Part shown: piece by piece, positions 4,272 to 63,088 of the stretch | How the letters are laid out: every line of letters starts with the position of its first letter | How positions within the stretch are numbered: the first letter of the stretch is position 1 | From: Aedes albopictus | Taxonomy: Eukaryota; Arthropoda; Insecta; Diptera; Culicidae | Assembly (NCBI RefSeq): GCF_035046485.1 | Contig: NC_085137.1 | Span: 501,104,536-501,168,535 of the forward strand | Direction of reading: 5' to 3' | Length of the DNA stretch: 64,000 bases | Made by a program: the position numbers and the translations under genes | The notes under the pieces: generated by a model | What the model saw: the letters and a program-made list of their open reading frames with translations, nothing else | Databases searched by the model: none | What the model was told of the DNA's origin: nothing

Positions 4272-4515
4272 CACTGGGAAAAAATCTTCATTTCTTCTAT
4301 GTGTCCGGGACATGGATTTTTGCAATGGGGGTTAACAAATGTTTTTCATCAGTGCGACTCATACTTTTGATGAGGCACCATACAGCAGCGACTCATACAA
4401 TTTAGAGCACATACTATTCATGTGCTAATTTGCCTGCGTAATCGGGTATTGGTTGCATATACTTTAGATGTGGTTTGGCACATGGATATTTGCCATTAAG
4501 TATGAGGCAATTTTC
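4272..4515. mobile_element. Larger part of a MITE cut by the 3.8-kb transposon (other part at 19,587-19,602)
   Basis: The outer end, cactgggaaaaaatc after TA at 4,270-4,271, is of the CACT(C/G)AGgaaaa type. Its inner end stops at the transposon boundary with gcaattttc. The matching start, cactcaggaaaattgc preceded by TA, is 15 kb away at 19,587. Joining the reverse complement of this piece to that start at the shared 9 bp gives one TA-flanked element. This is one of two breakpoint reconstructions supporting the inversion. Confidence 0.65.
4507..4515 (+). repeat. 9-bp half TSD gcaattttc (partner at 19,594-19,602, reverse complement)
   Basis: This abuts the left TIR of transposon copy A. The expected direct repeat is not at the right end of this copy (which has gattgaacc). 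Its reverse complement, gaaaattgc, abuts the left end of copy B. Confidence 0.9.
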
Positions 4516-5639
4516 AAATATACTATATTAACAATATAGGTCACTCTTACGATTTTTTGGCGACACCTTTTTAGTGAATGTGGCGCCACCATGCGTCAGA
4601 AGAGGTACTACTACACACTAAATGCATGCGTGCTATCCGAATGACGTTTATTCTGTCGAACTGTCATTGCATGGTGGGGATGCCCATTTCTTCTGAAATA
4701 ATCGATTAAACATAGATCGATTTTTTTTTTCAACTACTCAAATTAGAACAAATTTTATTCTCTCTTGAACAATTTCTGGCATATATTACACTAGTTTACA
4801 GCATTTTTGAACTCGGTAAGCTGATGATCGTTTTTGGTGTAGAATCATGCCCTGAGTTCGAAAACGCGAAGGAAAAAAATTACAGTAGAGCAGAAATTTT
4901 TTCGACTTTCCATACAAGGTTGATGATTTGAAATCGACTTTTGTTCTATTTTCAAGCAATGTCGCTCATTTCACACATCCTCATTCTCCGTAGTCAATGC
5001 TCTGATTGAGCTGAATTTTTTACTGTAACTTGCTTTCATATGATATGTCAAATAAACGTTGAGAAAGAATTTTCAAATTGTTTTTTTCTTATTGAAAAAA
5101 ATACATTTCTTCAAAAATTTTAGAAAATTTTGCTAAAATTTAAGGAGATCGTCCTCAAAACTCACCAATATCTTGAATTTCATCAATCTGACGCAAAATC
5201 TGCATTAAAATGATCGAAAGGTATTATATTCAGCTTTTAATTTATGGAAAAAGATTTAAAATTGGTTAAACAAAACGCAAGATATTTGAATTTTATTAAA
5301 TTCCATATTTTAAAAATTTGTAAAACTCGATATTGAGCTAAAACTCAAAAACTGTTCTACTTTAATTTTTTTGAAGCACGGTTTCGAAATCAGCACTAAA
5401 TTATGCTTCAAAAATTTTGGTCGTTGACAGAAGTTCACGACTTTCGTTTTATTTTGTAAACTAGTGTTATTGTCGCAGCACCAAATCGAAGTTGCGACTC
5501 GTGCGACATGCGAAGTTGCAGATGAGAAGTAAATTTGAACCGATAAACGTTCATAACAGACTAAAACACAGACGACCCAAATCGAACTTTCCGTTAGCGA
5601 GTGATGAACGGTATTTTCTCCGGAAATTAAACAAGAATT

Positions 5640-6970
5640 TCATTGTGGGATCCCTTTAAGAATTGCACCCTGGATTTTTTTTCTCCAAGATTCCTCCTGA
5701 ATCTCTTGAGGGATTCCTCCTAGAAATTATTCTGGAATTATTTTAGGAACTCCTTTCGGGATTGCCCAGGGAAAGCGTTCCAGCGTTCCTCCTCCATCCT
5801 CCAACATTTTTTTTTATCTGGGATTACATATCTCCATGAATAAAACGCAATCTGTGAAGTACCAGATTTGTAGTATACTGATTTGTATAATGACAAATTA
5901 AATTCTCCGTTACTGCAATAAAATGGTAACTGCAATAATGGTAACAAAAAAGCAAGGGTTTATTACTGCTTGTGTGATTTGATGCTGTTTGAGCAAAACT
6001 TTGGGTAACTGTGTTGTTGTATTCTCATTTAATGCAACTTCAACAACATATTTCCCCAAAGTTTTGCTCAAGCAGCAAGCATCAAACTAGGCTAAGAATC
6101 ATAATACCCATGAGTTTGCGCCGTTTCAATGCAGAAACGGAGAGTTTAGCATCTCACCATACAAAAAACCAACTCATTACTACAAATCTAGTATTCACTT
6201 ATTCCTTCTGGGAATCCCGGGAAAAAGTACTTCTGAAGACATTCCAAATTTATAGAAATCTTGGAAGGAATCACAAAAATAATTCCTGGAGGATTTCTGA
6301 TACTTCAAAGAGGGAACTTCTGAAGGAATCCTGGAAAGATCCCTCGATAAATATTAATTAAATTGTTCATATAAAATCGCGTTGGTGATTTACATAGTCA
6401 CTTTGGAATTTCTCCGAAATTTTAAAAGAAATTCCTTGAAAAATCCCAGAAAACTCTGTGGAAATCGTTAAAGGACGGAGTGAATTCCAGAAGCAACTTT
6501 TGGAGGAAAATACTGGTAGAAATCCCGGTTGAAATTCCCAGAAGGAGGAATTTTTGAAGGAACTCTTGGATAAATCCATGAAACAACTCCTGGTCGTTCT
6601 TGGAAAATTTTGGAGGAATTCCAGAAGGAACTCCGGGAGGTATTCGTAAAAAAACTCCTGAGGGAATTGTTGAAGGAGCTGAGCTTCTGCAGGAATCCAA
6701 GAAAAACTCCAAGAAACTCCTATAAGGGAATCCTATAAGGAACTTCTTGACGAATACTTGAAGAGAATTCTTGAGGATTCCTAGAATTAATTCTTGAAGG
6801 AACATCAGAAGAAATTGCTGGAGTAATTTCAGTAGGAACTCCTGGGGGTTCCTCGAGGAAACCTCTGGAGAAATTTAAGAAACAAAAACTTTAAATCAAT
6901 CTCTCAATGCACTCCTGGAGGAATTTCAAAAAGAGCTCCTGAATGAATCTCAGAAAAAACTAGAAGGAAA
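5640..6970. repeat. Degenerate GGAATTCC/TCCTGGAGG minisatellite inside copy A
   Basis: Irregular repetition of ggaattcc, ctcctggagg and cttcaagaa words at roughly 12-15-bp spacing, interrupted at 5,850-6,205 by an unrelated inverted-repeat element. Same sequence type as the blocks at 17.6, 32.2-35.6, 44.6-46.5 and 47.8-48.5 kb. Frames here encode only leucine, glutamate, serine and arginine-rich low-complexity peptide. Confidence 0.75.
5848..6205. mobile_element. Inverted-repeat MITE nested in copy A
   Basis: The left arm has agatttgtagtatactga and the right arm ctcattactacaaatct. An inner pair, gagcaaaactttggg (about 5,990) and ccaaagttttgctc (about 6,057), can form a stem. The same unit is present in copy B at about 21,706-22,063. 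Confidence 0.6.
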
Positions 6971-6971
6971 C

Positions 6972-7140
6972 CAAGGGGAATGACATATCCTTTTCTAATC
7001 GGAAAATCCGCATATATCCGTTCCCAACCGTTGCTAACCGCTGGTAACTGAGCCGCAGGTGTTGTTAGACGCGATTAACGATGGTTAGCAACGGATAACC
7101 AAACAACGGATTTTTCCGGTTAGCAAAGGAAAAGAGAAAA
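6972..7140. mobile_element. Diverged CAAGGGGAATGAC-end MITE nested in copy A
   Basis: The left end caaggggaatgacatatcct at 6,972 and the core (gttgctaaccgctggtaac, gttagcaacggataacc) match the MITE at 18,618-18,792. The right end is degraded. The reverse copy lies near 20,770-20,940. Confidence 0.65.
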
Positions 7141-7837
7141 CTGAGAAGTAACTTCCGTTGGAAAATCAGAATAATTTTACTAACTGAAGTTTAAGAATAT
7201 GAAGGCTATTTTTACTAACTGAAGTTCACCCAGAAGCCCATGACTGTATATTTAAAAATAATGAGCTTTGCAAGGATTTCGCGAAGATCGTGTAAATGTT
7301 TAATCTTTGACAGCACAATGTTCACACATCCAACAACAAAGGAAACCGATTAGTTCGGAATAAAACAACCAGTATTCGAATAAACTCACAGTTCACTTCG
7401 GAAGAACAACGAAATTAATCAAAATTAAATTTGACGGGTTCTATTCTCAGGTCCGGTCCCGGAGCTCATTTTTTGTAAGCACGGAACGCTCAAACGTTGA
7501 AATTTCGTGCATCTGTCCATTAGCTTGTGCACCCTTGGATTCAATGTCTTACACTCTGCTACAAGAAATTTGACGTGCATTTGCTTGGTGATCTTCTGGA
7601 TTTTTGTAAGCTATCCAATCCGATGTATGTATGTCAGCGTGGACATTAAGAAAGATGATATTAAAAGCCATTGTCAAAGGAAAAGAACAACCACCAGGGC
7701 AAAATATAAGTTAATTTTGAGGGTGAAAATTTTAAATTTCGAAGTGAAACGATTTCGGTGACGTTACAATGAGGGAGCATTCAAATTCTTCTACCGATGT
7801 ATTCGTAGATGTCATTCAATGAAATATAGCGCATTTA

Positions 7838-8066
7838 GTTCACCACTGGACTATCGCACGAGTTTTCATGAGTGCGAAAACGTAAATAAAGTGCGCGATT
7901 GCAACAAATCAACTTGGTGTGTTCAGAGCACTTATTCAGCATAAATCAAAGAAATAGTGCGCTGAAGATATCAACTGGATTTGATGCAATCGCCCACTTT
8001 TATTAACGTTTTCGCACTTATAAAGTCCGAGTGCGCAGTCCAGTGTTGAACTAAATGCGCAATATT
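7838..8066. mobile_element. Hairpin MITE nested in copy A
   Basis: Two arms of about 100 bp: gcgcatttagttcaccactg at 7,838 and, reversed from 8,066, gcgcatttagttcaacactg. Internal words such as gtgcgaaaacgt and gcgattgca occur on both arms. The DNA can fold into one long hairpin. The reverse copy is at about 19,850-20,080. Confidence 0.75.
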
Positions 8067-8308
8067 ATTTTGTTTGTGTATATTATAAATCGATTATTTA
8101 TTATTCGATTATTTTGGAACAAAAAACTTTGACACCCCTAACATCTTTTTTTCAGAAATGTCACCTTGCACGGTAAACAAAAATTGATCAAAATACAATT
8201 ATTGACTTTTTCTGGCAGCAGGTGGTGCTGTAATCATTCGTAAACGGCGTCTCCATGTCGTTGTATGTGAAAACACGAAGTGACCTATATTGTTAATATA
8301 GTATATTT

Positions 8309-8398
8309 GATTGAACCCATGACCTTCTGCATACGAATCAGAAGCGGTATCCACTAGACCACCAAGCCCGTCACTTCACCCGGCAGGGATGGCATGTC
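8309..8398 (-). mobile_element. Head of a tRNA-derived SINE, split from its body by transposon and inversion
   Basis: On the minus strand: TSD gacatgccatccctgccggg + tgaa (8,375-8,398), then gcttggtggtctagtggata (A-box-like tggtctagtgg), then gaaggtcatgggttcaatc (B-box-like), stopping exactly at the TIR of copy A. The body resumes at 23,395 (ggttcaatccctggcc) on the other side of copy B and ends at 24,030. It is followed by the second copy of the same 24-bp TSD at 24,031-24,054. The head-body junction shares the 9 bp ggttcaatc. Confidence 0.85.
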
Positions 8399-8770
8399 AC
8401 GCAGAAACTGTGCCCATTTACGCTCATCTTTCACTGAACTTCTCACTTGCATTTTTCTTTCAAAAGAGAAAGAGAAAAAACGCACAATAAAATGTACATA
8501 ATTTCTCTCACGCAGAGTTTTTGTGCGGGTGATTAGAGTGCTGCGTGAGAGCAATGAGAGCCCGCAGATCATAATCCCAGTGCGCAATTTCTGCGCACAC
8601 GCAGAAAAAACAGAACTCAGTGCACACGCAGTGTCTTCAAAGGGGTCAGTGTTGTTTGAGCATTTGGTGAACCGGAAGCATGCCAGTGAGCCCAAAACCA
8701 GGGGTATCAAATCCTGTGATATCAGAGACAAGCATACGTCTTAAGCTGGTCAAGTACTTACAGTTGATGG

Positions 8771-8995
8771 ATGTTTTGGTTCCAAATTCCACCAAAAGGC
8801 TGTGCTAGTGAGCTAACAAACTTTGTTTTTCAAATATATCAGGAAAATTTGCAAAAAATTGCAACGAAATTTCAATCTCATATATCTCATGATCCTGATT
8901 ACTTAGAGAGTTGGTGTCTTCGACAAAGTTGTTTGGCTGGTCAAGGACTAACCGATAATAAAACTTAAGATTCAAAATTCCACCGCTAGGCGGTG
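8771..8995 (-). repeat. Copy of a ~170-bp dispersed unit (cgcctagcgg / gccgaagacacc)
   Basis: Read on minus, it has accgcctagcggtggaattt, gaccagccaaacaactttg, acaccaactctctaagtaat and caggatcatgagatat. It is nearly the same sequence as 10,876-11,010. See the cluster entry at 10,137. Confidence 0.75.
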
Positions 8996-8999
8996 CTAC

Positions 9000-10130
9000 C
9001 CGAATAGAAAATTATGGTTCATGGTATTGTGCATATTATAAGATATTCATTTGTGGAATAATTACGATAAATATAATAATATATTTATGATTGAATGATT
9101 CAAGTCTTAGAAATTAGATCATTCAATACCTTTCAATAACCGCAGTATTAATGATAACGATTCCTTCTATGATTCATGAATAATTTTCAATAATTGGATT
9201 TCCATGAGTTCGCTGACCGTAATCAATAGTTAATGCTTTTTGACTGCACTTAGACCGTATAGTCATAACCGAAACGCAAATATGGTCAATTATAACAAGC
9301 ATACCTTGTAATCCTAGTCAAATCCGTGGTCTAACTCGTCAGCAAGCCCGTCAGTGCTTGAAAAAAATATTCCTGATGACCGATTCCCAATCACCAATAC
9401 TCGAGCCAACACTATCACGCTACCACGATTTTGTGAAGAACATGGGAAACATTACATGCCACAGGTGGTAGATGTATTCCCGTGCACATCCTCCGTCCAT
9501 CCGTCGTCACTGCGCTGTGAATATCGGCTCCGGCATGGATTTTCTCTGGGGTTCAAGTTACTAAATCGATGGATCAAAGAATTTTCCTGCGTAGATTTTT
9601 TTGTCCTTCGCGCCTTCACAACATTACTGCATTTCGATCAACTGCGAGCACAGATTCTGTTTGGTGTCGTGCGTAAACACCACCGAGAAACTATCAACAC
9701 CGATTGATCAGGTTCGATTCCCGATCCTTCAAATAAAAAACGCCGTCGAAGTAAACAATGATTCACATAATCGTCACCAAACTTGACAGTGTCCGACAAC
9801 TGCCCGCAGGGGTGTGCTTTTTTCCTGTCGGTAAAGTAGATTTGGTGAAATATTTCTGTTTTGTTTTTATTATTTGTCGTATCGTAAAATAGATGATACA
9901 GTGATTATAACATGTTTGATTCTGCAAAATTTTTGTTCGAGAAATCGGGCATTTTTGAATGGTAACGATACTTAACAACCCATTCGGCCTATCATCAAAA
10001 CTCCCGGAATGATAAATGCTATCATCAAAACGATTGGTCTTATCATCGATGTATAATCCACTTTATGATAGCACAAACAATTACTAAGGCATACGCTGTA
10101 CAATTATTGTATCATACCATTTTATTCGGG
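9000..10130. other. Unassigned A+T-rich stretch within the hAT-like element
   Basis: Two short frames (9,354-9,707 plus; 9,763-9,978 minus) have no recognised domain. A B-box-like ggttcgattcccgatcc at about 9,709 hints at a tRNA-related SINE ending in the sequence after it, but no convincing A box or tail is seen. Near 10,010-10,110 are several atgatag/tatcat words of unknown meaning. Confidence 0.35.
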
Positions 10131-10136
10131 TAGTGA

Positions 10137-11045
10137 GTTAGCAAATTTTGTTTTTCATAAATATCAGGAAAATTTGCAAAAAATTGCAACTAGCGCCGCC
10201 TAGCTGCAGAAACTTGAACCAAACGGTAATTATTCTGAAAGCCCTTGATATACCAAACAATTTTGCCGAAGACACCATCATTCTAAAGAATCAGAGTACT
10301 GAGATATGTGAAATGTAAAATTTGTTTGCTCTCTTGCGCCGCCTAGCGCTGAAATCACGAATCATACGGCCCATATTGTGAAAGCCCATGACCAGCCAAA
10401 CAACTTTGCCGAAGAAACCAACTCTCTAAGTAATCAGGATCCTGAGATATATTGGATGGAAATTTTGTCAGTGTTGCATCTGCTTGTCTATGATATTATC
10501 ACATAAATCACAGACAAATAGATATGTGACACTAACGAAATTTCAATCTCATATATCTCATGATCCTGATTACTTAGAGAGTTGGTGTCTTCGGCAAAGT
10601 TGTTTGGCTGGTCAAGGACTAACCGATAATAAGGCTTGAGATTCAAAATTCTACCGCTAGGCGGCGCTAGAGAGCAAACAAATTTTAAATTTCGCATATC
10701 TCAGCATCCTGATTTTGTAGAAAGATGGTGTCTTCGGCAATATTGTTTAGTAGATCATGGGCTTTCAGAATAATTACCGTTTGGTTCAAGTTTCTGCAGC
10801 TAGGCGGCGCTAGTTGCAGTTTTTTTGCAAATTTTCCTGAAATTTATGAAAAACAAAATTTGTTAACTCACTAGCACCGCCTAGCGGTGGAATTTTGAAT
10901 CTTAAGTTTTATTATCGGTTAGTCCTTGACCAGCCAAACAACTTTGCCGAAGACACCAACTCTCTAAGTAATCAGGATCATGAGATATATGAGATTGAAA
11001 TTTCGTTAGTGTCACATATCTATTTGTCTGTGATTTATGTGATAT
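10137..11045. repeat. Inverted cluster of a ~170-bp unit
   Basis: Plus-oriented units (10,137-10,495) are followed by minus-oriented units (about 10,500-10,880) and another plus unit (10,876-11,045). Each has a (g)cgccgcctagcgg box, a gccaaacaactttgccgaag box and a tcaggatcctgagatat box. The centre near 10,497 is a symmetry point with aaatcacagacaaatagata. Function unknown; the layout suggests foldback duplication. Confidence 0.7.
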
Positions 11046-11049
11046 CTTA

Positions 11050-11219
11050 TGCCGTTTTTCTTTATTATCCAGTTCCAACCTGGGTTGGAACTGGATCAGA
11101 TCACAGTTTCAACCCCAACCCGACTTCGGTTTCGCTTGTACTAAAGTTTGTTTGACGTTGTTTGTTTACACATTTTCCGCCAATCCAGTTCCAACCCAGG
11201 TTAAAAAAGAAAAACGGCA
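11050..11219. mobile_element. Harbinger-type MITE, TTA duplication
   Basis: The ends tgccgtttttcttt and aaaagaaaaacggca are inverted. TTA occurs at 11,047-11,049 and 11,220-11,222. An inner pair ccagttccaacctgggttgg and ccagttccaacccaggtt gives more pairing. TTA duplication with terminal symmetry fits PIF/Harbinger-derived MITEs. Confidence 0.75.
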
Positions 11220-11573
11220 TTAGATAAGCAGATGCATTTGCTACTAGACGGCGTAATAGTACTTTCATACTCCCTGTGGTAGACACAGTATTGCACTGGA
11301 AGCACGACTGAGTGCGCACTCAACGAATTTTTGTGTGCACATTTTCTGTGCGCACAGAATGTGCACGCAGAAACTGAAAAACATGCTTGTTCTATCATTT
11401 GTATGAGCACTCATTTTGAGTGTGCCGCTGATGGATGCCAGAGAGTGAGCGGCTGGTTTGTGTGTGAAAAAAGTTGCGTAGTTCACCCTCGCTCTCGTTG
11501 GAAGTCGTGTGTAGAGTGTATGTTTTTTCTTCTCTCGTTTCGCACTGAGGAGCATGCCATCTCTGTCACCCGG

Positions 11574-11991
11574 TGTACGCCTTATTGTGAGTCTTTCTAA
11601 AATTTTCTTAGCGTGGGTTGGTCCCCCGAGTGAGTCCGTTGTTGACATCGTATCAAGGCTTGGCCGTTTTTGAGAGAGAGAATTCTCGCTCTCGGCGCTC
11701 GGGCCGAGAGCCGCTCCGAAAATTTTCGGTTGTCGGCCCTTTAAACGAGAGGACCAACAAATGAAAACAAAATTTTACCGTTGCTGGCCCATTTGGAGCA
11801 CGGGCTAATGAATGATTGGGAAAAAAAGCAATGATCGGCCGTTTTGAAGGTGGGGTTTATTCTGATAAGAGTAACGGTTAGGCGGGTGATGTTTGCACAG
11901 TATGTTACTGTTGGGGAATGCTATGGAAAGGTATCAAAATCGATTTGTTTACATTTTAGGGATAGGCCCTTTTCAAATGTAACGCGAGAGT
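11574..11991. other. Unassigned; start of a repeat also seen at 24.26 kb
   Basis: About 11,660-11,740 has short inverted words (ctcgctctcggcgctcgg, gggccgagagccg). The stretch gataggcccttttcaaatgt aacgcgagag near 11,960 matches 24,265-24,295, so an older repeat was present here before the hairpin MITEs entered it. Confidence 0.45.
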
Positions 11992-12041
11992 TGTGCTCAT
12001 TCTGCGAATGGAGTGACGTGAGAAAAGTCGGAGTCGTATAT
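11992..12041 (+). repeat. Single arm of the 190-bp hairpin MITE
   Basis: gtgctcattctgcgaatgga gtgacgtgagaaaagtcgga is one terminal arm without its partner, directly followed by a complete copy. Confidence 0.8.
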
Positions 12042-12231
12042 TTGTGCTCATTCTGCGAATGGAGTGACGTGAGAAAAGTCGGAGTCGTATATCGAGATGA
12101 GGAATCCACTCTCGAATAAAGTGACTCGCCGTGTAAATCAAATGGAGAGTCACCTCATTCGAGTCGAGATTTCTCACCTCGATATACGACTCCGACTTTT
12201 CTCACGTCACTCCATTCGCAGAATGAGCACA
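12042..12231. mobile_element. 190-bp hairpin MITE, complete copy 1
   Basis: Begins tgtgctcattctgcgaatgg and ends with its reverse complement at 12,231. The interior (gaatccactctcgaat, gtgactcgccgtgtaaatca, cctcattcgagtcgagattt) is also nearly self-complementary, so the whole unit is one hairpin. Confidence 0.85.
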
Positions 12232-12233
12232 AT

Positions 12234-12372
12234 TGAGATGAGGAATCCACTCTCGAATGAAGTGACTCGCCGTGTAAATCAAATAGAGAGTCACCTCATT
12301 CGAGTCGAGATTTCTCACCTCGATATACGACTCCGACTTTTCTCACGTCACTCCATTCGCAGAATGAGCACA
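12234..12372. mobile_element. 190-bp hairpin MITE, copy lacking its left arm
   Basis: Starts inside the unit (gagatgaggaatccactctc) and runs to the right terminal arm ending gaatgagcaca, immediately after the complete copy. Confidence 0.8.
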
Positions 12373-12373
12373 A

Positions 12374-13190
12374 GTGATGACGTCAGCGTGCAAGCGCTCA
12401 TGCAGTGAAAAATCATGATCGCGGAGGTGGATAAATCCGAGGAATCCGATCACGTGAGTGAGAAATTTGATGCCTGTAACACAATCAATGAAAAAATCGA
12501 GTTATCTTACGTTAATCGATTTTGTTTACTAGTTTCCATGACTACAATGCAAAAGAAAAGAAAATAACAAGTGTTTGACATCTTATGTTATGCAAGTACA
12601 CATTTTTGAAGATTTTCAGAAATAATTGGGTTACTTTGATAATTTTACATTTACATTTACATTTATCTACACAAAATTTGCTATAAAATAAGGGATTGCG
12701 AATTACAGGAAAAATTTCAAAATCCTTATAAATTGAGCATTTTTGAAAAATTTGGCGAAAAAAGGCGATATTTTAACCTTTGTCAAATATATAAAATCAG
12801 CTTTGATGACCTAAACTCCCTCCAAACTTTATTTGCGAGACCCAGAACTATGATTAACTTTGATTGATGACTTTTATTTCTTTTATTTTTCAACTCATAT
12901 TAGCATTTTTTAATAAAAATACCAAAAATCGTCCATTTTTCATAAAACCGATGCGTGAAACCTCTAAATATTTTTTGATTGAGTTTTCATGTATGGAATT
13001 ATTGTTGCTAGGACCGTAATCTATCATTCTAAAGGTGAACAAGTTAACTTTTTGACACTTTTTCTATTTTGGAACACCCTATTGTATATATAACCTTGGA
13101 ATAAAGCAGTAATTAACCCCTCTAGAGCTCTCTAGAGCATCATCGATTTTCGACGAACTTGAGACAAACGGAATGGGAGCTTGCACAGTT
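12374..13190. other. Unassigned A+T-rich sequence
   Basis: No coding frame of interest. The stretch near 12,430-12,490 (gatcacgtgagtgagaaatt tgatgcctgt) has a partner near 25,225-25,260, so part of it belongs to a dispersed repeat. Confidence 0.4.
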
Positions 13191-13379
13191 GAGCTCATTC
13201 TGCGAATGGAGTGACGTGAGAAAAGTCGGAGTCGTATATCGAGGTGAGAAATCTCGACTCGAATGAGGTGGCTCTCCATTTGATTTACACGGCGAGTCAC
13301 TTCATTCGAGAGTGGATTCCTCATCTCGATACACGACTCCGACTTTTCTCACGTCACTCCATTCGCAGAATGAGCACAA
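13191..13379. mobile_element. 190-bp hairpin MITE, complete copy 2
   Basis: Same structure as 12,042-12,231: left arm gagctcattctgcgaatgga, right arm ending gaatgagcaca, with a self-complementary centre. Confidence 0.85.
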
Positions 13380-13385
13380 GTGACG

Positions 13386-13545
13386 TCACTTTTTATCTCC
13401 TTCTCTTTCTCTCCTACGGCGTCGGCCCATATCCGAGTAAACATTGCCCTCAAAATTTTGAGGGCAATGTTTACTTTTTGTATGAGAATTTGCGAGGTTA
13501 TGTTTTTGGTGCAAGCCTCTATCAGATGAATATGATGCAATAGTT
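13386..13545. repeat. Fragment of a repeat shared with 24.3-24.65 kb, with a 38-bp perfect palindrome
   Basis: The segment from ctacggcgtcggcccat through gaggttatgtttttggtgca agcctct matches 24,315-24,640 in order. At 13,437-13,474 the DNA is a perfect 38-bp palindrome centred on caaaattttg. The related site at 24,565-24,595 is imperfect. Confidence 0.7.
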
Positions 13546-13553
13546 TTTAGAAT

Positions 13554-13742
13554 TGTGCTCATTCTGCGAATGGAGTGACGTGAGAAAAGTCGGAGTCGTA
13601 TATCGAAGTGAGGAATACCGTCTCGAATGAAGTGACTCCCCGTGTAAATCAAATGGAGAGTCACCTCATTCGAGTCGAGATTTCTCACCTCGATATACGA
13701 CTCCGACTTTTCTCACGTCACTCCATTCGCAGAATGAGCACA
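13554..13742. mobile_element. 190-bp hairpin MITE, complete copy 3
   Basis: Left arm tgtgctcattctgcgaatgg; right arm ends gaatgagcaca at 13,742. The sequence differs from the other copies by scattered substitutions (gaataccgtctcgaatga). Confidence 0.85.
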
Positions 13743-14405
13743 TATGACTGTAATCCTATTAGGTAAACCCAACTCCCAACTACTTGTTCCAATAGTGCAA
13801 CTATTGATAAACAATCAAAATACTATTGATTTACAACTAACATTTTTTCGTTGATTTCGAAAAATTTGACCAATTTGCAATAACTTTTTTTCAAGCACTT
13901 TTTTCGGAAACGCTTTCTTGGCATAGAAATAGTCGTTCAAAGTCGTGAAAAGGAAAGGGTTAACATAAGCATAGGTACATCACTTGATAACAGAGTTCTT
14001 GTGCGGCTTCAGAGTGAAAGTGTAGCTAATTGACTGTAGATCTCGTTGCGGAAATGTTGATTACCTACGGAAGTACGTTTGGAAAATATGCGACAAGTGA
14101 TACCTATTTTGATTTGCTTTGCTGTGAGGTGCCGGGAATCAACGTGGGTGCCCAAGTAGTTCGAAACCCTAAACCTCTAGCTCGTTGAGCACTGCCTTGG
14201 ATTAGAAACAAAATATCAGTGAAGCTTCAGAATAACAAGCGCAGCCAATGCCGAGCTTTTTAAGTTTGAGTTGTTCCATATAAAGTTGAAATACCCTAGT
14301 CTTGGCGTGTTCGGATCGATTGCAAAGTCCGATATAAATTATTCAAATATTACAGAACATATTATTAACCGCTCAACATAGAAACCTAACGACTTACCTG
14401 GTGTT
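13743..14405. other. Unassigned; probably holds the DDX54 3' UTR intron and end
   Basis: No separate gene is seen. On the minus strand a strong splice donor (cag|gtaagtc) lies at 14,398/14,397, eight bases past the DDX54 stop codon. This suggests a 3' UTR intron running into this stretch; the acceptor and poly(A) site were not identified. Confidence 0.4.
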
Positions 14406-17027
14406 CTACTTCTTCTTCGACTTGGCCATCTTCTTGCCGAGCGACTTCTTCTTCCGGGCCAAATTGCGCAACCGAGCGGTCTTCTCCTTCGCGAGCTTGG
14501 TCTCCTTCTGTATCCGCTGCTTGACGATCTGATCGGCCGACTTCAGACCCAGATCGCGCTGCTTCTTCTGATCCAGCTTGGCGTTGTGCCGTCCCCAGTG
14601 CGTATGCGGATAGTCGTTCTTCTGCACGGACACGGCGGCATCTTCGCCGTCGCTGGCATCACTGTCCTGCCGTTGGCGCGCCATCTGTTCGTCAACCTTG
14701 GTACGCTCCTTCCACTTGTCGTACCGACCGGTTTTGTACGAAGCCGCAATCCAGACGCCGTGTTCCGTGCGAATCTTGCCGGCCTTGGGATTGACCACGT
14801 TGACCATCTTCTTTTTCTTGCGATCCCACTTTTGCAACCGCTGATGGGACCGCTGATCTTCGGCCGTGTCTCCGATAACGGATAACTCGGCCGAATTGGC
14901 CTCCTTGGCGAAGCTGTTGATCGCATAACCGTCCTCCTCGACGTGATCCTTGGACTGATAGGCGATAAAGTTCTCATCATCTTTGATGGGTTTGCGTTTC
15001 TTTTTCCTCGGATGTTCTTCCTCGTCGTCTGGCACACTGGCTGCCGAGGCCTTTTTCTGCTCCTCCAGCTCCAGTTCCAGCAGTTTCTGTTTGTGTTTTT
15101 CGATTTTAATGGTATCTTTGCTGCGCTTCTCGGCCATCACCACCACCTCCTTGGCGTGGTTCTTGGGGTTCAGCTCGAAAATGGTCGACTGCGGCCGGTA
15201 GCTTTTCATCTGGGCGAGGAAACTACTGCGGAATTCATCCGGGTCCACAGTCGGTTGCTTTTTCTAGAAAAGATAATAAGGACGTAATTGTTAAATTGAC
15301 TCAGACAAATCATGCGTGGAATTATGAACTCAATTCTTACCTGATCAGCAGCAGCCTTTTTCCCTTTCTTCTTCAGCTTGACGACCTTCTTGTCCTCGTT
15401 CAGCTTCTCCATCACCTTGCCGAAATCTTCCAGCACTTGCAGCTCCCCTATCTTGAACTGCTTAGCCTTCTTGTTGGCGCTGGCTGAAGCCGCCGGCCGA
15501 GTCACAATGTACTGCTTATATGCGTTGTTACTGATGCGGAACGCCGTGGCCAGATCGATGTGCTTGACGTAATCTAGTATCAGCTGATGTTCCGCTTCGA
15601 CCATATCCGGTGGAGCCAATCCGATCCGGCGTGTGTCGTTCAGCACCAGCGGCCGCGTGAGGAACATGTGCAGGTCGATCATGTGCGCGATATCGTCGTT
15701 GGAGAAGATGTTGAAGGCGGTTCCACTGCGGCCAGCACGGGCACAACGACCCACCCGATGGACGAACAGCTTCGGTTTTCCCGGAAAGTGCACATTCACC
15801 ACGTAGTCCAGCGAAGGAATGTCCAGTCCACGGGCGGCAATGTCTGTGACAACCAGGACGTTCACCTTCTTCATGGTGAACTTGGCCGTGTTGATCTTAC
15901 GTGCCGAGGCGTCCAGACTCGAGAAGACGTAGGTGTTTGAAATTCCCGCTCGGGTCAGTATCTGAAAAGAAAAGATCATGTAAATTTACTAATGAGGCAG
16001 CGAGGCAGACCAACATTCCTAGGAACGGTAAAATAAATTCCTTGATTTCCTAGGACATATGTAGTACCTTCGTGCATGTCACACTATATTTATACATATG
16101 ACTAAAATTATGTTACCATAATGTTCAATGACGTACCAAAGAAATCAACTCGACGTGATGCTGTGTGCCGGCGAACAGCACGGTTTGGGCCCCTTTAGGA
16201 ATCACCTCCCGGAGCAAAATCAACAGGGTGGCATACCGTTCGTCCGGCCTACAGTAGATAAATTTCAAATCCAGCGCCTCCGGAATCTTCGATTCCACAT
16301 CCAGTCGAATCAGCGTGGGATCGCTCAGGCCCGCCTTGGCAAAGTCCACCATCAGCTTGGGCAGTGTGGCACTAAACAACACCATCTGCCGCGCCTCCGG
16401 CAATCTCCGCAGTGTCTCCGTCAGCTGCTCACCGAATCCCATCTCGAACAAGCGATCCGCCTCGTCAAACACGCAGTACTGCACCGCCGACAGCTTCAGA
16501 TCCATCTCCACACACAAGTGCAGGAACCGACCGGGTGTGGCCACAATTATATCCGGCAGCGTATGAATGGCCGCAAACTGCGAATCCATCGAGTCCCCTC
16601 CCAGCACCAGAATCGTCTTCAAGTCCGTGAACTTCCCGAGCTGCTTGATAAATTTAAACGTCTGAATGGCCAATTCTCTCGTCGGAGTCAAAATCAGCGC
16701 ACGAGCACCACCGGACTTGATCTCCCGCTGCTTCAGCTTCTCAAACAACGGAATCAAAAAACAACCCGTCTTTCCCGATCCTGTCTTAGCCATAGCAACC
16801 ACATCACGGCCCTCCAGAATCAGCGGCACGGTTTTACGCTGAATCGGTGTTGGCACCTTGTAGCCCATCTTCAGAATGGCCTTCAGGATCGGCATGCTCA
16901 GGCCCATGGCCTGAAATCCTCCGCCCTTCTTCTTCTTACCCTTCCGCGAGTCGTCATCGTCGTCGAAGTCCAGATCGGCATTTTCGATCGAAAACCCCGG
17001 AAGAACGTTCGGATCTTCCGTATCCAT
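14406..17027 (-). CDS. DDX54: DEAD-box ATP-dependent RNA helicase, DDX54/Dbp10 type
   Basis: A nucleolar helicase family that remodels pre-60S ribosomal RNA; that role is family knowledge. Coding exons on the minus strand are 17,027-16,137, 15,961-15,341 and 15,263-14,406, giving about 789 residues. All splice sites follow GT-AG (gtacgt/ttcag and gtaaga/tctag) and all introns are phase 0 (175 and 77 bp). The first exon holds the Q motif ([19 protein letters not shown]), [25 protein letters not shown] and SAT. The second holds [10 protein letters not shown] and [13 protein letters not shown]. The third is a lysine-rich basic tail ending KSKKK, with [16 protein letters not shown], the Dbp10 C-terminal domain signature that separates it from other DEAD-box proteins. 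The ATG at 17,025-17,027 starts [11 protein letters not shown] before an acidic run. The gene lies wholly in the segment flanked by inverted transposons. Confidence 0.95.
15264..15340 (-). other. DDX54 intron 2 (77 bp)
   Basis: Minus-strand donor gtaaga follows GCTGATCAG. The acceptor cttttctag precedes AAAAAGCAACCG. The frame is preserved (phase 0). Confidence 0.9.
15962..16136 (-). other. DDX54 intron 1 (175 bp)
   Basis: Minus-strand donor gtacgt follows ATTTCTTTG. The acceptor cttttcag precedes ATACTGACCCGA. It sits between helicase domains 1 and 2. Confidence 0.9.
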
Positions 17028-17312
17028 TACGTTTCGGATGGACCACTGCCACTAATGACACTTTATCAACTGGTTTTGGGAGTTTTTGCGGGAAAACTTG
17101 AAAAAAATTGCGAAAATTCCCAAAAACGTGAAGAAACGCGACCGCTCGCTTCACCGGTAAACAAAAACACGTGTGGAAAGCTGGCTGACGTTTCGTGCTG
17201 CGGATTTTGTTATGTCGACTGCGATGGGTGGTGTCTTTTAGGTCGAGTATGAAAGGGGAGTGACACACGGCTATTACGGAAATTATGCGAAAGATCCGAA
17301 AGATAAATAATT
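17028..17312 (-). promoter_or_regulatory. Probable DDX54 5' UTR and promoter region
   Basis: About 285 bp between the DDX54 start codon and a MITE. No TATA box is evident. Assigned by position only. Confidence 0.4.
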
Positions 17313-17544
17313 CTGCATCAACATGTCTAAAGGGTCTAACTCGTTTTGTAAACAAACATTGTTTCTGTCGCTGTAGGGTCTATCTCGTTCCACCCACGCA
17401 TCTGGGGGCTGTTATCAGAAAGATCAAACTTCGCTCTTTCTGATAACGACCCCCAGATGCGTGGGTGGATCGAGATGAGCCCTACAGCGACAGAAACAAT
17501 GTTTGTTTACAAAACGAGTTAGACCCTTTAGACATGTTGATGCA
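17313..17544. mobile_element. 232-bp full hairpin MITE upstream of DDX54
   Basis: Begins ctgcatcaacatgtctaaag and ends with its reverse complement. The arms are about 108 bp with few mismatches (gtaaacaaacattgtttctg, cccacgcatctggggg), around a short loop near gatcaaacttcgctc. No coding capacity. It lies about 285 bp from the DDX54 start codon, so it could affect the promoter. Confidence 0.85.
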
Positions 17545-17599
17545 GTATTGTTTGCCGTGATTCCTATGCGACCTATTCAAATCAAACGTCAGATTTATA

Positions 17600-17970
17600 G
17601 CCTAGGACATTGCTTTTTGGCTCTTTTGAAGTTTTTGATATTTCGTGGCCTTTAAGAAATTCTATGCCTCCCGGAGTTCCTTTTGGGATTTCTTCTGGAC
17701 TTTTGTCAGGAATTGCTTCTGAAATTTGTTCAGAAACTCCTTCGTGGATATCTTCGGAAACTTCTTCCAGGATTCCTCTTGGAATTTATTCCGGGGAGTT
17801 CTTCTGGAATTCTTTCAGAAACTGCTTCCAGGATTTCTTCAGTAATTCTTTCCAGGATTCATCTAGGAACTATTTAATGGTTTCCTCTAAGAGTTCCACT
17901 TGGAATTCCTGCAGATCTTTCTGGTATTCTTCTGCAAATTTATTCTGGAATTCTTTCAGATCCCGCATAG
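17600..17970. repeat. Small block of degenerate GAATTCC minisatellite
   Basis: Irregular repeats of ggaattctttc, gattcctctt and cttccaggatt. Plus-strand frames read as serine/leucine/phenylalanine-rich low-complexity peptide with no domain. Confidence 0.65.
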
Positions 17971-18311
17971 AAAAATACTATTCATAGCATCGTTCATATT
18001 ACACGATTTCCATTGGTGCAATAATAACTATACAAGGACTAATCATTTTAATATGATTGGAGTTGAAAAATTTCAACAATTCAGAATTGTTCAAGTATCA
18101 TTGAACATATAATAATGATACGTTTAATAATATTTGAATAATATTTAATAATAGGATATACCAAAATTGCAGCGACAAAAATCATGTTTTTAACTTTTTT
18201 TCACTATATTTAGTATTTAACGGTTAAAAAAAGTCACTATAATTAGTATTTAACGGTTGGACAGTCGCGCTTTTTTGATCTCTTGTCGAGTTTCTTGTTT
18301 TCGATCGCTGC
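17971..18311. other. Unassigned A+T-rich leader of the broken LINE ORF
   Basis: Includes a direct repeat of agtatttaacggttaaaaaa near 18,210 and 18,250 (tagtatttaacggtt). Probably the 5' UTR of the retrotransposon whose ORF1 follows. Confidence 0.4.
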
Positions 18312-18617
18312 ATGTGTAAAATGTACGGTGGACGAAAAAACACATTAGCGGTTGACTTCAGTGTTCTCCCAATTCGTCCTGAAATTGGGAAAGTTCAAGA
18401 TTTTTTGGAGAAGGAAATAAGTCTTAAATATGCCGATGTCAGGAGCATACAGCTCCATCACATACGGAACTGTGTGCTCATTGAAATGGTTTCCACCGAA
18501 GTCGTGTGTCGCTACCAGTCAGATCATAATCTGAAGAGAACAATGGTTTGTAGCGGCAAAGCGTTTCGAATTCCGGTGCACGAAGATGGCGACGCTGTAA
18601 CCGTAACCGTTCGAATA

Positions 18618-18792
18618 CAAGGGGAATGACATATCCTTTTCTAACCGGAATATCCGCATTTATCCGTTTCTAACCGTCGCTAACCGTGTCTAACCGTTGG
18701 TCACTTAGCAGCTCGCTTAGCAACGGTTAGCGACGGTTAGAAACGGATAAATGCGGATATTCCGGTTAGAAAAGGATATGTCATTCCCCTTG
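18618..18792. mobile_element. 175-bp hAT-type hairpin MITE inside the ORF1
   Basis: The ends caaggggaatgac and gtcattccccttg are inverted, and the arms continue inward (ttttctaaccggaatatccg). ttcgaata occurs on both sides (18,610-18,617 and 18,793-18,800), an 8-bp duplication. A 10-bp duplication gttcgaatac with shorter ends is an equivalent reading. Confidence 0.9.
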
Positions 18793-19200
18793 TTCGAATA
18801 CTGGATTTGTCTCCGTCGGTTAGTGACAAAGCCATAATCGACTCTATGCTGAAATTTGGGGAGGTAATCTCTATAAGGGAAGAAAAATGGAAGCATTATT
18901 TCCCCGGCATGTCGAACGGAGTACGGGTACTCCGTATGAACTTATTCCGCGATATTCCTCCAATCATTACGATACAAAATGAAACTACAATGGTCGTTTA
19001 CCCAAACCAACCCAAATCACGAGGTCCATCCCAGCCGACAGAGAAGCGCACGGATTCATACACCGTTGACAATATTCCATCAGCAGCATCACCATCATTA
19101 TCATCAGCCGATGGTTTGTTTGATCACACCGATTTCCCACAAATAAACCAGCAGCGCAAATCATCACCTACTCTACCGAGTGCACCATTACGCGTACCTA

Positions 19201-19436
19201 CACTCAGCGAAAAAACTAACGAAATTCATCAAAATAGCTTATGATTTTTTGCCATAAATGATTCTTATGGATGCCATAAGCATAACTTATGAAAACTAGT
19301 TTTCATAAGTTATCCTTATGGCATGACATAAGAAAATCTTATGAAAATGAATTTTCATAAGATTTCCCTCATGGCATTCATATAGCTCAATTATGGCAAG
19401 AATCTTATGAACTTCCTAAGATTTTTTATTTGCGTG
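19201..19436. mobile_element. TA-flanked MITE inside the ORF1
   Basis: Starts cactcagcgaaaaaac, ends ttttttatttgcgtg. TA at 19,199-19,200 and 19,437-19,438. Interior inverted pairs such as cttatggatgccataagc and gaaaactagttttc. No coding capacity. Confidence 0.8.
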
Positions 19437-19586
19437 TACGACTGAGGAAGGAAAACAGAACGACGACGGCTGGACCGACATTAATGACCAGGGATTGGCG
19501 GCATGCACCGTGCGGTGCGAAAAAAGCGTGTGTTTCACACAATCGCAAGTGCTCGTCTCCCGTTTTGCCGAGAGACAAGAGACGTA

Positions 19587-19602
19587 CACTCAGGAAAATT
19601 GC
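19587..19602. mobile_element. Start of the MITE cut by copy B (rest at 4,272-4,515)
   Basis: cactcaggaaaattgc, preceded by TA, runs straight into the transposon TIR. Its last nine bases (19,594-19,602) are the reverse complement of 4,507-4,515. Confidence 0.7.
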
Positions 19603-22600
19603 AAATATACTATATTAACAATATAGGTCACTTCGTGTTTTCACATACAACGACATGGAGACGCCGTTTACGAATGATTACAGCACCACCTGCTGCCAGA
19701 AAAAGTCAATAATTGTATTTTGATCAATTTTTGTTTACCGTGCAAGGTGACATTTCTGAAAAAAAGATGTTAGGGGTGTCAAAGTTTTTTGTTCCAAAAT
19801 AATCGAATAATAAATAATCGATTTATAATATACACAAACAAAATAATATTGCGCATTTAGTTCAACACTGGACTGCGCACTCGGAGTTTATAAGTGCGAA
19901 AACGTTAATAAAAGTGGGCGATTGCATCAAATCCAGTTGATATCTTCAGCGCACTATTTCTTTGATTTATGCTGAATAAGTGCTCTGAACACACCAAGTT
20001 GATTTGTTGCAATCGCGCACTTTATTTACGTTTTCGCACTCATGAAAACTCGTGCGATAGTCCAGTGGTGAACTAAATGCGCTATATTTCATTGAATGAC
20101 ATCTACGAATACATCGGTAGAAGAATTTGAATGCTCCCTCATTGTAACGTCACCGAAATCGTTTCACTTCGAAATTTAAAATTTTCACCCTCAAAATTAA
20201 CTTATATTTTGCCCTGGTGGTTGTTCTTTTCCTTTGACAATGGCTTTTAATATCATCTTTCTTAATGTCCACGCTGACATACATACATCGGATTGGATAG
20301 CTTACAAAAATCCAGAAGATCACCAAGCAAATGCACGTCAAATTTCTTGTAGCAGAGTGTAAGACATTGAATCCAAGGGTGCACAAGCTAATGGACAGAT
20401 GCACGAAATTTCAACGTTTGAGCGTTCCGTGCTTACAAAAAATGAGCTCCGGGACCGGACCTGAGAATAGAACCCGTCAAATTTAATTTTGATTAATTTC
20501 GTTGTTCTTCCGAAGTGAACTGTGAGTTTATTCGAATACTGGTTGTTTTATTCCGAACTAATCGGTTTCCTTTGTTGTTGGATGTGTGAACATTGTGCTG
20601 TCAAAGATTAAACATTTACACGATCTTCGCGAAATCCTTGCAAAGCTCATTATTTTTAAATATACAGTCATGGGCTTCTGGGTGAACTTCAGTTAGTAAA
20701 AATAGCCTTCATATTCTTAAACTTCAGTTAGTAAAATTATTCTGATTTTCCAACGGAAGTTACTTCTCAGTTTTCTCTTTTCCTTTGCTAACCGGAAAAA
20801 TCCGTTGTTTGGTTATCCGTTGCTAACCATCGTTAATCGCGTCTAACAACACCTGCGGCTCAGTTACCAGCGGTTAGCAACGGTTGGGAACGGATATATG
20901 CGGATTTTCCGATTAGAAAAGGATATGTCATTCCCCTTGGTTTCCTTCTAGTTTTTTCTGAGATTCATTCAGGAGCTCTTTTTGAAATTCCTCCAGGAGT
21001 GCATTGAGAGATTGATTTAAAGTTTTTGTTTCTTAAATTTCTCCAGAGGTTTCCTCGAGGAACCCCCAGGAGTTCCTACTGAAATTACTCCAGCAATTTC
21101 TTCTGATGTTCCTTCAAGAATTAATTCTAGGAATCCTCAAGAATTCTCTTCAAGTATTCGTCAAGAAGTTCCTTATAGGATTCCCTTATAGGAGTTTCTT
21201 GGAGTTTTTCTTGGATTCCTGCAGAAGCTCAGCTCCTTCAACAATTCCCTCAGGAGTTTTTTTACGAATACCTCCCGGAGTTCCTTCTGGAATTCCTCCA
21301 AAATTTTCCAAGAACGACCAGGAGTTGTTTCATGGATTTATCCAAGAGTTCCTTCAAAAATTCCTCCTTCTGGGAATTTCAACCGGGATTTCTACCAGTA
21401 TTTTCCTCCAAAAGTTGCTTCTGGAATTCACTCCGTCCTTTAACGATTTCCACAGAGTTTTCTGGGATTTTTCAAGGAATTTCTTTTAAAATTTCGGAGA
21501 AATTCCAAAGTGACTATGTAAATCACCAACGCGATTTTATATGAACAATTTAATTAATATTTATCGAGGGATCTTTCCAGGATTCCTTCAGAAGTTCCCT
21601 CTTTGAAGTATCAGAAATCCTCCAGGAATTATTTTTGTGATTCCTTCCAAGATTTCTATAAATTTGGAATGTCTTCAGAAGTACTTTTTCCCGGGATTCC
21701 CAGAAGGAATAAGTGAATACTAGATTTGTAGTAATGAGTTGGTTTTTTGTATGGTGAGATGCTAAACTCTCCGTTTCTGCATTGAAACGGCGCAAACTCA
21801 TGGGTATTATGATTCTTAGCCTAGTTTGATGCTTGCTGCTTGAGCAAAACTTTGGGGAAATATGTTGTTGAAGTTGCATTAAATGAGAATACAACAACAC
21901 AGTTACCCAAAGTTTTGCTCAAACAGCATCAAATCACACAAGCAGTAATAAACCCTTGCTTTTTTGTTACCATTATTGCAGTTACCATTTTATTGCAGTA
22001 ACGGAGAATTTAATTTGTCATTATACAAATCAGTATACTACAAATCTGGTACTTCACAGATTGCGTTTTATTCATGGAGATATGTAATCCCAGATAAAAA
22101 AAAATGTTGGAGGATGGAGGAGGAACGCTGGAACGCTTTCCCTGGGCAATCCCGAAAGGAGTTCCTAAAATAATTCCAGAATAATTTCTAGGAGGAATCC
22201 CTCAAGAGATTCAGGAGGAATCTTGGAGAAAAAAAATCCAGGGTGCAATTCTTAAAGGGATCCCACAATGAAATTCTTGTTTAATTTCCGGAGAAAATAC
22301 CGTTCATCACTCGCTAACGGAAAGTTCGATTTGGGTCGTCTGTGTTTTAGTCTGTTATGAACGTTTATCGGTTCAAATTTACTTCTCATCTGCAACTTCG
22401 CATGTCGCACGAGTCGCAACTTCGATTTGGTGCTGCGACAATAACACTAGTTTACAAAATAAAACGAAAGTCGTGAACTTCTGTCAACGACCAAAATTTT
22501 TGAAGCATAATTTAGTGCTGATTTCGAAACCGTGCTTCAAAAAAATTAAAGTAGAACAGTTTTTGAGTTTTAGCCCAATATCGAGTTTTACAAATTTTTA

Positions 22601-23394
22601 AAATATGGAATTTAATAAAATTCAAATATCTTGCGTTTTGTTTAACCAATTTTAAATCTTTTTCCATAAATTAAAAGCTGAATATAATACCTTTCGATCA
22701 TTTTAATGCAGATTTTGCGTCAGATTGATGAAATTCAAGATATTGGTGAGTTTTGAGGACGATCTCCTTAAATTTTAGCAAAATTTTCTAAAATTTTTGA
22801 AGAAATGTATTTTTTTCAATAAGAAAAAAACAATTTGAAAATTCTTTCTCAACGTTTATTTGACATATCATATGAAAGCAAGTTACAGTAAAAAATTCAG
22901 CTCAATCAGAGCATTGACTACGGAGAATGAGGATGTGTGAAATGAGCGACATTGCTTGAAAATAGAACAAAAGTCGATTTCAAATCATCAACCTTGTATG
23001 GAAAGTCGAAAAAATTTCTGCTCTACTGTAATTTTTTTCCTTCGCGTTTTCGAACTCAGGGCATGATTCTACACCAAAAACGATCATCAGCTTACCGAGT
23101 TCAAAAATGCTGTAAACTAGTGTAATATATGCCAGAAATTGTTCAAGAGAGAATAAAATTTGTTCTAATTTGAGTAGTTGAAAAAAAAATCGATCTATGT
23201 TTAATCGATTATTTCAGAAGAAATGGGCATCCCCACCATGCAATGACAGTTCGACAGAATAAACGTCATTCGGATAGCACGCATGCATTTAGTGTGTAGT
23301 AGTACCTCTTCTGACGCATGGTGGCGCCACATTCACTAAAAAGGTGTCGCCAAAAAATCGTAAGAGTGACCTATATTGTTAATATAGTATATTT
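19603..23394 (-). mobile_element. 3.79-kb non-autonomous TIR transposon, copy B (inverted relative to copy A)
   Basis: Same element as 4,516-8,308 read on the opposite strand, with the same 30-bp TIRs and the same nested passengers in reverse order: hairpin MITE ~19,850-20,080, CAAGGGGAATGAC MITE ~20,770-20,940, minisatellite ~20,940-22,230, inverted-repeat MITE ~21,706-22,063. Length differs by one base, from a homopolymer. The flanks are gaaaattgc (19,594-19,602) and ggttcaatc (23,395-23,403), which do not match each other but are the reverse complements of the two flanks of copy A. Confidence 0.9.
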
Positions 23395-24054
23395 GGTTCA
23401 ATCCCTGGCCCGTCCTTTTCATCCTACTTTGTATCTTTCTATCCACTTTCTCTCGCTCTCTCTTCTCTACATATACAACTCATGTATATTCATATGTTCA
23501 TAGCCATCGCTAGAACCAGAAACGAATTGAAAAAAGTCGTTTCTCTCCCTTTCAACTTCCACCCACAGCACAGTGTATATATAACGCCTATAAGTTATGC
23601 AACCAAAAGCGTGCTGTGCCGCTTGACCTTATCCACCTTATTCACCACACAATCTATCACGAACACTATAAATAACCCTATCCATGGATCGCATCACCGA
23701 CCCAACGGTGACTCCCAGATCTCCCATCCTTTCCGTCTAACAAATACCCCAGTCCGTGCTGGTTGTGGGGACGCAGAGTGCTCTCGGTCTCTAGTAGCAA
23801 CAACCAGTACACTCTAACATTCCTTTCCCTTCCCAGCTGACTATAAGGACTTGGCCGGCGCCGTTATTGATCAAATATGCATGAGCTGCTAAAATTGCAC
23901 TTTGAGAATAAGTGGAATGTCCCAGCCCCTTATTCAGTTGGATCTCAGTGCAACTGGTACCAGTTCAGATCAATCACGGAGGAGCAACCATTGACATGTA
24001 TAGTCAGAATTGATCGTTATGATCGTTATCGACATGCCATCCCTGCCGGGTGAA
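23395..24054 (+). mobile_element. Body of the split SINE-headed retroposon, ending in its 24-bp TSD
   Basis: Starts with the B-box half ggttcaatccctggcccgtc at the TIR and carries a body with ggacttggccggcgccgtta. It ends in a short tandem tail (gatcgttat twice) at 24,030, followed by gacatgccatccctgccggg tgaa (24,031-24,054), which is the exact 24-bp duplicate of 8,375-8,398 read on minus. With the head at 8,309 the unit was about 690 bp. The tandem-repeat tail and tRNA head recall the Gecko/MosquI 3'-end class of Aedes; this name is tentative. Confidence 0.8.
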
Positions 24055-31151: not shown

Positions 31152-31952
31152 AGCCCAGCAACTCCTATCCTTACCTCCACGCGGTACCGGCCGGAAACTA
31201 TGAGCAACCTTAGGGAAGATCGGGTAACCAACCCCGGTGGGAACTTTGGTCGTAGGCTGACAGGGAAGGGGGGGTTTGCTTCGGCAAACCTGAGCGTCTG
31301 TTCTCCAGGAGGAGCGGCTCACAACAGCGTCTGATCCCCATGTTAGGGGCGGCTGATCTACGTCCGAGTGCCAGGGAAGGACTCTAAGCTCAACTGTGCA
31401 CTATGGTCCTCCGGAAAGTAGGGGGTTGGTGTCAGGCCCTACGAGCCAGCCGTAAAAAACCATTGTAACGGAAAATTAGCAACAGAATAATACGAACCGA
31501 GACCAACGGCAACGACCCCAGCGAACAAAAAGGACTTGCGATTGGAAACTCGGTACGTGGAACTGCCGATCTCTTACTGAAGGACCGCGGGTTCGGCATC
31601 GTAGCGCTGCAGGAGGTGTGTTGGACAGGATCCATGGTGCGAACGTTTAGAGGTAATCATACCATCTACCAGAGCTGCGGCAACACACGCGAGCTGGGAA
31701 CAGTTTTCATCGTTATGGGTGATATGCAGATGCGCGAGATCGGTTGGTGGCTCGACGATCGACGAAAGAATGTGCAGGTTGAGGATCAAGGGCCGATTCT
31801 TCAACTTCAGCATAATAAACGTGCACATCCCACACTCTGGAATCACTGATGATGACAAGGACGCATTTTATGCGCAGCTCGAACGCGAGTACAATCGCTG
31901 CCCAAGTCACGACGTCAAGATCATCATAGGAGATTTAAACGCTCAGGTAGGC
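31152..31952 (+). mobile_element. RTE-like LINE, 5' fragment (second copy)
   Basis: Leader with accccggtgggaactttggt, then the same endonuclease as at 1-1,640: ggaggtgtgttggacaggat (ALQEVCWTG), GWWLDDRR, KGRFFNFSIINV, and stops at GDLNAQVG (31,952). About 33 bases present in the first copy after CRSL are deleted (31,570), and a few substitutions break the frame. Truncated 3' of the endonuclease. Confidence 0.85.
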
Positions 31953-37702: not shown

Positions 37703-37995
37703 GTCCCCAATACGATCTTTAGATTGTTTTTTCGGGTCGTCGATCCTGTTTCAATTTGTTCCCCAAGTTTGTGGTTAAAATCGCCCAATGCGGCATGTTT
37801 GACAACCGAACCGAACCGAGTGTTTTTATTTTGCATTTTTTTTTGTTTACAAGTGCATCTGCGGTCACACTCACAAACGACGCAAGCGAAAGACGCGACG
37901 CGCATAAGTGCAACACCCCCTCCAAAATTTACAGTGCAAAGTGTTTAGGTACCGAGATCCGGGTCTTCTCCGTTAAAGTTTTTGCATCGTACGTT
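37703..37995 (+). promoter_or_regulatory. SAAL1 5' UTR and promoter region
   Basis: The stretch 37,940-37,995 (ttctccgttaaagtttttgc atcgtacgtt) also aligns with the DNA before the paralogue at ~62,940-62,975, so it is ancestral upstream sequence. The open frame continues upstream to 37,756, but no homology supports that longer start. Confidence 0.5.
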
Positions 37996-62985: not shown

Positions 62986-63088
62986 GAATTTTGAAAAAGA
63001 CTGCCACAGAAACACTGATAATACGCCTGTGATCGGGTGCGTTTGTTATCTAACAAAGAACATAAGAACAAAAGCACCTCAAAGTAAT

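Follow-up and report, generated by a model that had tools for sequence, protein, structure and literature searches.

Exchanged target duplications and a split retroposon point to an 11.3-kb inversion between transposon copies in Aedes albopictus

Introduction

Inversion 2z3 of Drosophila buzzatii was made by the transposon Galileo, and the same source, as of 2009, calls evidence that transposons cause inversions in flies scarce (PMC2775673). The Aedes albopictus locus described here resembles 2z3 in having oppositely oriented copies of a DNA transposon at both breakpoints, in the exchange of 7-bp target duplications between them, and, as far as site 2 shows, in that nothing was lost or gained at the breakpoints (PMC2775673). 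It differs in scale (~11 kb here, ~11 Mb there) and in the state of the copies, which are nearly identical here, whereas in D. buzzatii a chimeric pattern proved that recombination had taken place (PMC2775673). The likeness is drawn from one assembly, and Galileo identity of the mosquito element is a candidate assignment. Inversions with a transposon copy at each end are also known from hybrid element insertion of P and from alternative transposition of Ac (PMC8225341, PMC2775673). According to the accessible parts of these sources, hybrid element insertion from a single site is expected to leave crossed duplications and identical copies; our locus has crossed duplications and near-identical copies.

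A small inversion is unremarkable in itself, since 23 of the 32 validated inversions of Aedes aegypti are shorter than 500 kb (PMC7068900). The inversion studied here shares its small size and its occurrence in an Aedes genome with these microinversions, and with 11.3 kb it lies below the 43-kb median of the Ae. aegypti inversions under 500 kb (PMC7068900). The available text of that study resolves no causal transposon pair, whereas a candidate pair is present here. In the open-licence literature, as far as it was accessible, we came across no inversion in an Aedes-type genome whose duplications had been exchanged, which is not proof of absence. We probably deal with a clean small-scale case, in a mosquito, of a Galileo-type inversion involving another transposon family, and not with a new kind of rearrangement.

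Results and Discussion

Inverted transposon copies and their target duplications

The stretch of DNA that we analyzed (64 kb, C2:501,104,536-501,168,535; hereafter the window) belongs to an assembly of 1.344 Gb in 1,494 contigs, three of them of chromosome size (338, 519 and 450 Mb). Two copies of a transposon, A and B, lie 11.3 kb apart in opposite orientations (Table 1). The terminal inverted repeats of copy A are perfect over 31 bp, and a search of the window with a 30-bp terminal repeat, allowing up to three mismatches, located four places, all at copies A and B (0.00 expected). No transposase domain scored above the cut-off in the eight stop-to-stop frames of the element, which gave two sub-threshold hits.

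Table 1. Positions of the features discussed in the text (window coordinates; strand "." where none applies).
Feature	Position	Strand	Remarks
Copy A, non-autonomous DNA transposon	4515..8309	+	3,795 bp, terminal C and G counted
Copy B, same transposon family	19602..23395	-	3,794 bp
Nested insertion, ~680 bp	4788..5466 (ends approximate)	.	inside copy A, also inside copy B
Target duplication 1 (CAATTTT), outer half	4508..4514	+	
Target duplication 1, inner half	19595..19601	-	reverse complement on + strand
Target duplication 2 (ATTGAAC), inner half	8310..8316	+	
Target duplication 2, outer half	23396..23402	-	reverse complement on + strand
Putative inverted segment, ~11.3 kb	8317..19594	.	from exchanged duplications and split retroposon
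tRNA-like retroposon head, 66 nt	8309..8374	-	contains TGGTCTAGTGG and GGTTCAATCC, which we take to be A-box-like and B-box-like, respectively
Retroposon body	23395..24030	+	ends in repeated GATCGTTAT tail
Retroposon 24-bp duplication, copy within inverted segment	8375..8398	-	
Retroposon 24-bp duplication, copy outside inverted segment	24031..24054	+	
DDX54/Dbp10-like RNA helicase gene	14406..17027	-	at least 3 open frames; wholly within inverted segment

A preliminary description of the locus had put the inverted copies at 4,516-8,308 and 19,603-23,394 and, from the parts compared, had rated them as more than 99.9% identical. The letters are as described there; comparison with the family moves each end one base outward, as the C start and G end lie one base beyond the first-read boundary in 14 of the 15 two-ended relatives (the exception is L035). 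The end-to-end alignment that the description had named as a possible refutation has now been run and upholds the identity, with three differences in 3,793 columns: one T of a T-run (around 4,721), A/G at 5,336 and G/C at 8,025. The two substitutions and the T-run indel are thus all that was seen, not many differences. The nested insertion shared by both copies has a stand-alone match (99%) at C3:61,221,346, and at a test position within it only A, B and one other family member, L031, have letters among the 22 aligned copies.

The same description had noticed that the flanks of the copies appear to be swapped, and this is borne out by all six pairings of the flanking 9-mers. The two left flanks, and likewise the two right flanks, are exact reverse complements of each other (0 mismatches), and the remaining four pairings have at least six mismatches, whether compared directly or as reverse complements. 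The proposed 9-bp target duplication, on the other hand, had to be shortened to 7 bp on the basis of a family control, for which we read 20 other genomic copies from 36 listed, 15 of the 20 being two-ended. A 7-bp direct duplication is perfect in 12 of these 15, and present in 13 when one mismatch is allowed, whereas copies A and B lack it, each mismatching at 7/7 positions of its own flanks. The two family members without matching 7-bp flanks are L035, which has a decayed 5' end, and L040. Nine letters match between A and B because the 7-bp duplication has the same neighbours at both targets, G before and C after (4507, 8317, 19594, 23403). Of the 13 other copies whose duplications match, none has this pair of neighbours, and we regard the additional G and C as an apparent coincidence. 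The mismatched flanks of L040 read TTTTTAG and GTTCTGA, and a further terminal repeat lies ~1.3 kb beyond (C1:27,965,013); L040 is perhaps a nested copy, or a longer one.

The transposon family

The genome contains 470 perfect 31-bp ends, 236 of them forward and 234 reverse, against 0 for the backwards control, suggesting recent mobility of the family. Judged by their sequences, A and B are sisters among the copies read, one a recent copy of the other, because they are 99.97% identical over 3,112 shared core positions, whereas L031, the next closest of the 20 read, reaches 98.3%. Among the copies read, identity exceeds 99% in one further pair, L043 and L044 (99.67%), which is located on different chromosomes. 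The two normal insertions of the preliminary description are therefore an incomplete account, since the two identity values speak for one copy having been made from the other. At element position 3,510, copy B has C, whereas A and 15 of the 20 read copies have G, two have T and three a gap; at position 821, the sole comparable copy, L031, agrees with A. At both positions it is apparently copy B that changed, as would follow from two later mutations in B whether the copies arose through recombination or hybrid element insertion.

The 7-bp duplication agrees with an assignment to the P superfamily, in its 1360/Hoppel or Galileo branch. The element 1360 has 31-bp terminal repeats and a 7-bp target duplication, and 1360/Hoppel-type membership is for us a lead only. 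The target duplication of Galileo likewise measures 7 bp (PMC2775673, PMC4168063). The original 9-bp figure had led us to consider a Mutator-like element (MULE), a superfamily for which the accessible text of PMC6446971 gives target duplications of 8-11 bp; the idea was dropped when the duplication of the family turned out to be 7 bp. Sites of the terminal repeat were listed on C1 up to 183.7 Mb, and below this position we checked by eye whether any listed repeat has a transposase domain within 10 kb. None was seen for the P-type domain (0/10; 55 matches in the whole genome) or for the MULE domains (0/6, the six being those on C1 below 183.7 Mb among 68 in the genome). No match to the terminal repeat turned up when viral contigs were scanned.

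A split retroposon as marker of the original order

Site 2, the target with duplication 2, is alone in marking the original order. Flipping 8,317-19,594 back rejoins the retroposon head with the body and yields a 693-bp tRNA-headed retroposon between 24-bp duplications. Even when three mismatches are allowed, the window contains these two occurrences of the 24-bp sequence and no other (0.00 expected in shuffles). Exact matches of at least 24 were also found in 7 of 285 random pairs (maximum 387, from a known repeat of the window), and what counts for the argument is therefore that the duplication lies at both ends of the retroposon, its length alone being insufficient. The corresponding repeat-based test of the site 1 halves found no significant similarity (best E 0.5; one shared 12-mer).

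Retroposons of this family are abundant, since at least 41 matches to the body, the window's own included, came from scoring 40 of 3,428 candidates. We read three relatives, the second, fourth and twelfth in the match list. Aligned with the flipped-back order, all three pass from the head across the junction into the body without interruption (98.3-98.6% identity); with the assembled order, their alignments begin only at the junction, one base ahead of it. As the retroposon halves and the 24-bp duplication line up only after flipping back, the segment is, as far as can be read from the sequence, reversed relative to the ancestral order, that is, the order when the retroposon inserted; the inversion proposed in the preliminary description is in this respect well supported. 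A scan of viral contigs for the junction gave no match. In the rejoined head, ARAGORN called no tRNA, and the folding energy of the head (-24.2, against a mean of -21.5 and a standard deviation of 3.3 in 500 mononucleotide shuffles) is not clearly better than that of the shuffles. The tRNA-like reading of the head is thus founded on the box motifs, not on folding.

The retroposon also bears on the idea that the two insertions are unrelated and that their flanks match crosswise by accident. The shortness of each duplication is the one point that speaks for such an accident. Two exact crossed matches would have to coincide with an independent 24-bp duplication and with retroposon continuity at the same junction, and the finding that 3/3 relatives cross the flipped-back junction is decisive, so that we consider a chance match extremely improbable.

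Origin of the inversion

Together, the data are best explained by homologous recombination between inverted sister copies of the transposon, which would have flipped the intervening DNA; we favor this reading slightly above an even chance. We infer that the flip occurred in the chromosome rather than in the assembly, and by recombination rather than by a single aberrant transposition. In the model, a non-autonomous transposon with 31-bp terminal repeats and a 7-bp target duplication would have entered the retroposon head, or the other site first. A sister copy would then have landed 11.3 kb away in opposite orientation, and homologous recombination between the near-identical 3.8-kb inverted copies would have turned the DNA between them round, exchanging the inner target duplications and parting the retroposon halves. 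Near-identity over 3.8 kb at a distance of 11 kb should make a favorable substrate for recombination. As it can proceed without any special transposase reaction, recombination is our first choice.

The order seen could also have been produced by the assembly procedure. Two normal insertions in inverted orientation, with the 11.3-kb unique segment set backwards between the 3.8-kb repeats, would give an identical sequence outcome, and repeats of this length with three differences are a possible source of assembly ambiguity. Transposon-related false inversion calls are indeed reported for Ae. aegypti, where 32 of more than 500 candidates were confirmed (PMC7068900). However, the 64-kb window contains no N and is located inside the chromosome-size contig of 519 Mb, and for this reason we rate an assembly flip as unlikely. 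The contiguity also points to a long-read assembly, the reads of which would normally cross 3.8 kb; the PacBio read N50 of 14,307 given in PMC7068900 belongs to another assembly, that of Ae. aegypti. The locus also serves as a warning that assemblies could contain flips between inverted repeats as long as these. The internal proof of the original order makes the inversion typable by PCR across strains, where it may turn out to be polymorphic or to toggle back and forth.

Hybrid element insertion is a possibility that we take seriously, although we hold it to be less probable than recombination. A single copy would have undergone one aberrant transposition, from which both the second copy and the inversion resulted; of the two target duplications that the copies now share crosswise, one would be old and the other new. 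The model predicts crossed duplications just like those observed (PMC2775673). It also needs copies that are identical at the time of the event, as A and B are apart from two substitutions and the T-run difference, and it accounts for their being closest kin among the copies read and for the 11-kb spacing. The recent mobility suggested by the perfect ends is in keeping with it as well. Because A and B are sisters, hybrid element insertion is well above a formality. At site 2 there is neither deletion nor duplication, as the retroposon is complete after flip-back. Against the model, an active transposase would have to act in trans, since the element has no transposase domain, and the check on C1 below 183.7 Mb found no autonomous partner for it. 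In the accessible literature, moreover, the process is described for P, with related ones in Ac and a small number of others; the present family is not among them. Finally, local transposition followed by recombination accounts for the same facts. If hybrid element insertion did take place, a non-autonomous mosquito transposon family would be able to make inversions directly, without two prior insertions.

The preliminary description held that two insertions followed by recombination give exactly the pattern observed. This is correct for recombination as a sufficient cause, but not as the unique one, given that hybrid element insertion predicts the same pattern. In the Galileo study, chimerism separated the two, with reference copies that differed by ~7% (PMC2775673). 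Between copies A and B no chimeric pattern was seen, a comparison that has no power here because the copies differ by two bases only.

We also considered transposition with reversed ends, acting on two separate insertions. According to the accessible text of PMC2775673 and PMC8225341, such events bring a deletion or duplication, and they would presumably leave one matched duplication pair only. The candidate was rejected because both duplication pairs match and the retroposon is complete.

Gene content and other features of the window

The inverted segment had been said to contain DDX54, and a DDX54/Dbp10-type helicase gene is indeed found there, with DEAD, Helicase_C and DBP10CT domains. Its frames keep a distance of ~2.6 kb from the breakpoint on the upstream side and of 6 kb on the downstream side. 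A search of the assembly with the helicase region gave 14 matches, of which one, the region itself, is full-length and 13 are short; there is neither a second full-length region nor an uninverted allele, and thus no alternative haplotype of the gene in the assembly. Among the 17 open reading frames of the window that were compared with Pfam, seven of them without a domain above the cut-off, we saw no gene cut by the breakpoints. The segment also carries a 1.13-kb repeat (9000-10131) with a 98% identical copy (L051) ~0.53 Mb away on the same chromosome; the similarity stops sharply on both sides.

Several features lie elsewhere in the window. Positions 54084-54470 and 63087-63473 are occupied by two copies, 100% identical and 9.0 kb apart, of a 387-bp repeat that has ATTCGCCTTGACGGA as its ends, and parts of it, one of them inverted, directly follow the second copy (63472-63858). 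Two uncharacterised genes, at 37756-39444 (+) and 61555-62799 (-), are related (75% DNA identity) and oppositely oriented. Pfam gave no domain for either, and two more relatives (70-71%) are located at C3:447.28 and 447.30 Mb. At 41475-41731, two 123-bp arms separated by an 11-bp spacer form a perfect inverted repeat, and at 31152-31269 there is a drz-agam-1 self-cleaving ribozyme (Rfam, 55.7 bits), a type that is usually linked to retrotransposons. The frame at 50191-50913 encodes a histone-fold protein (240 aa) whose N-terminal part is long; it may be a centromeric H3 variant.
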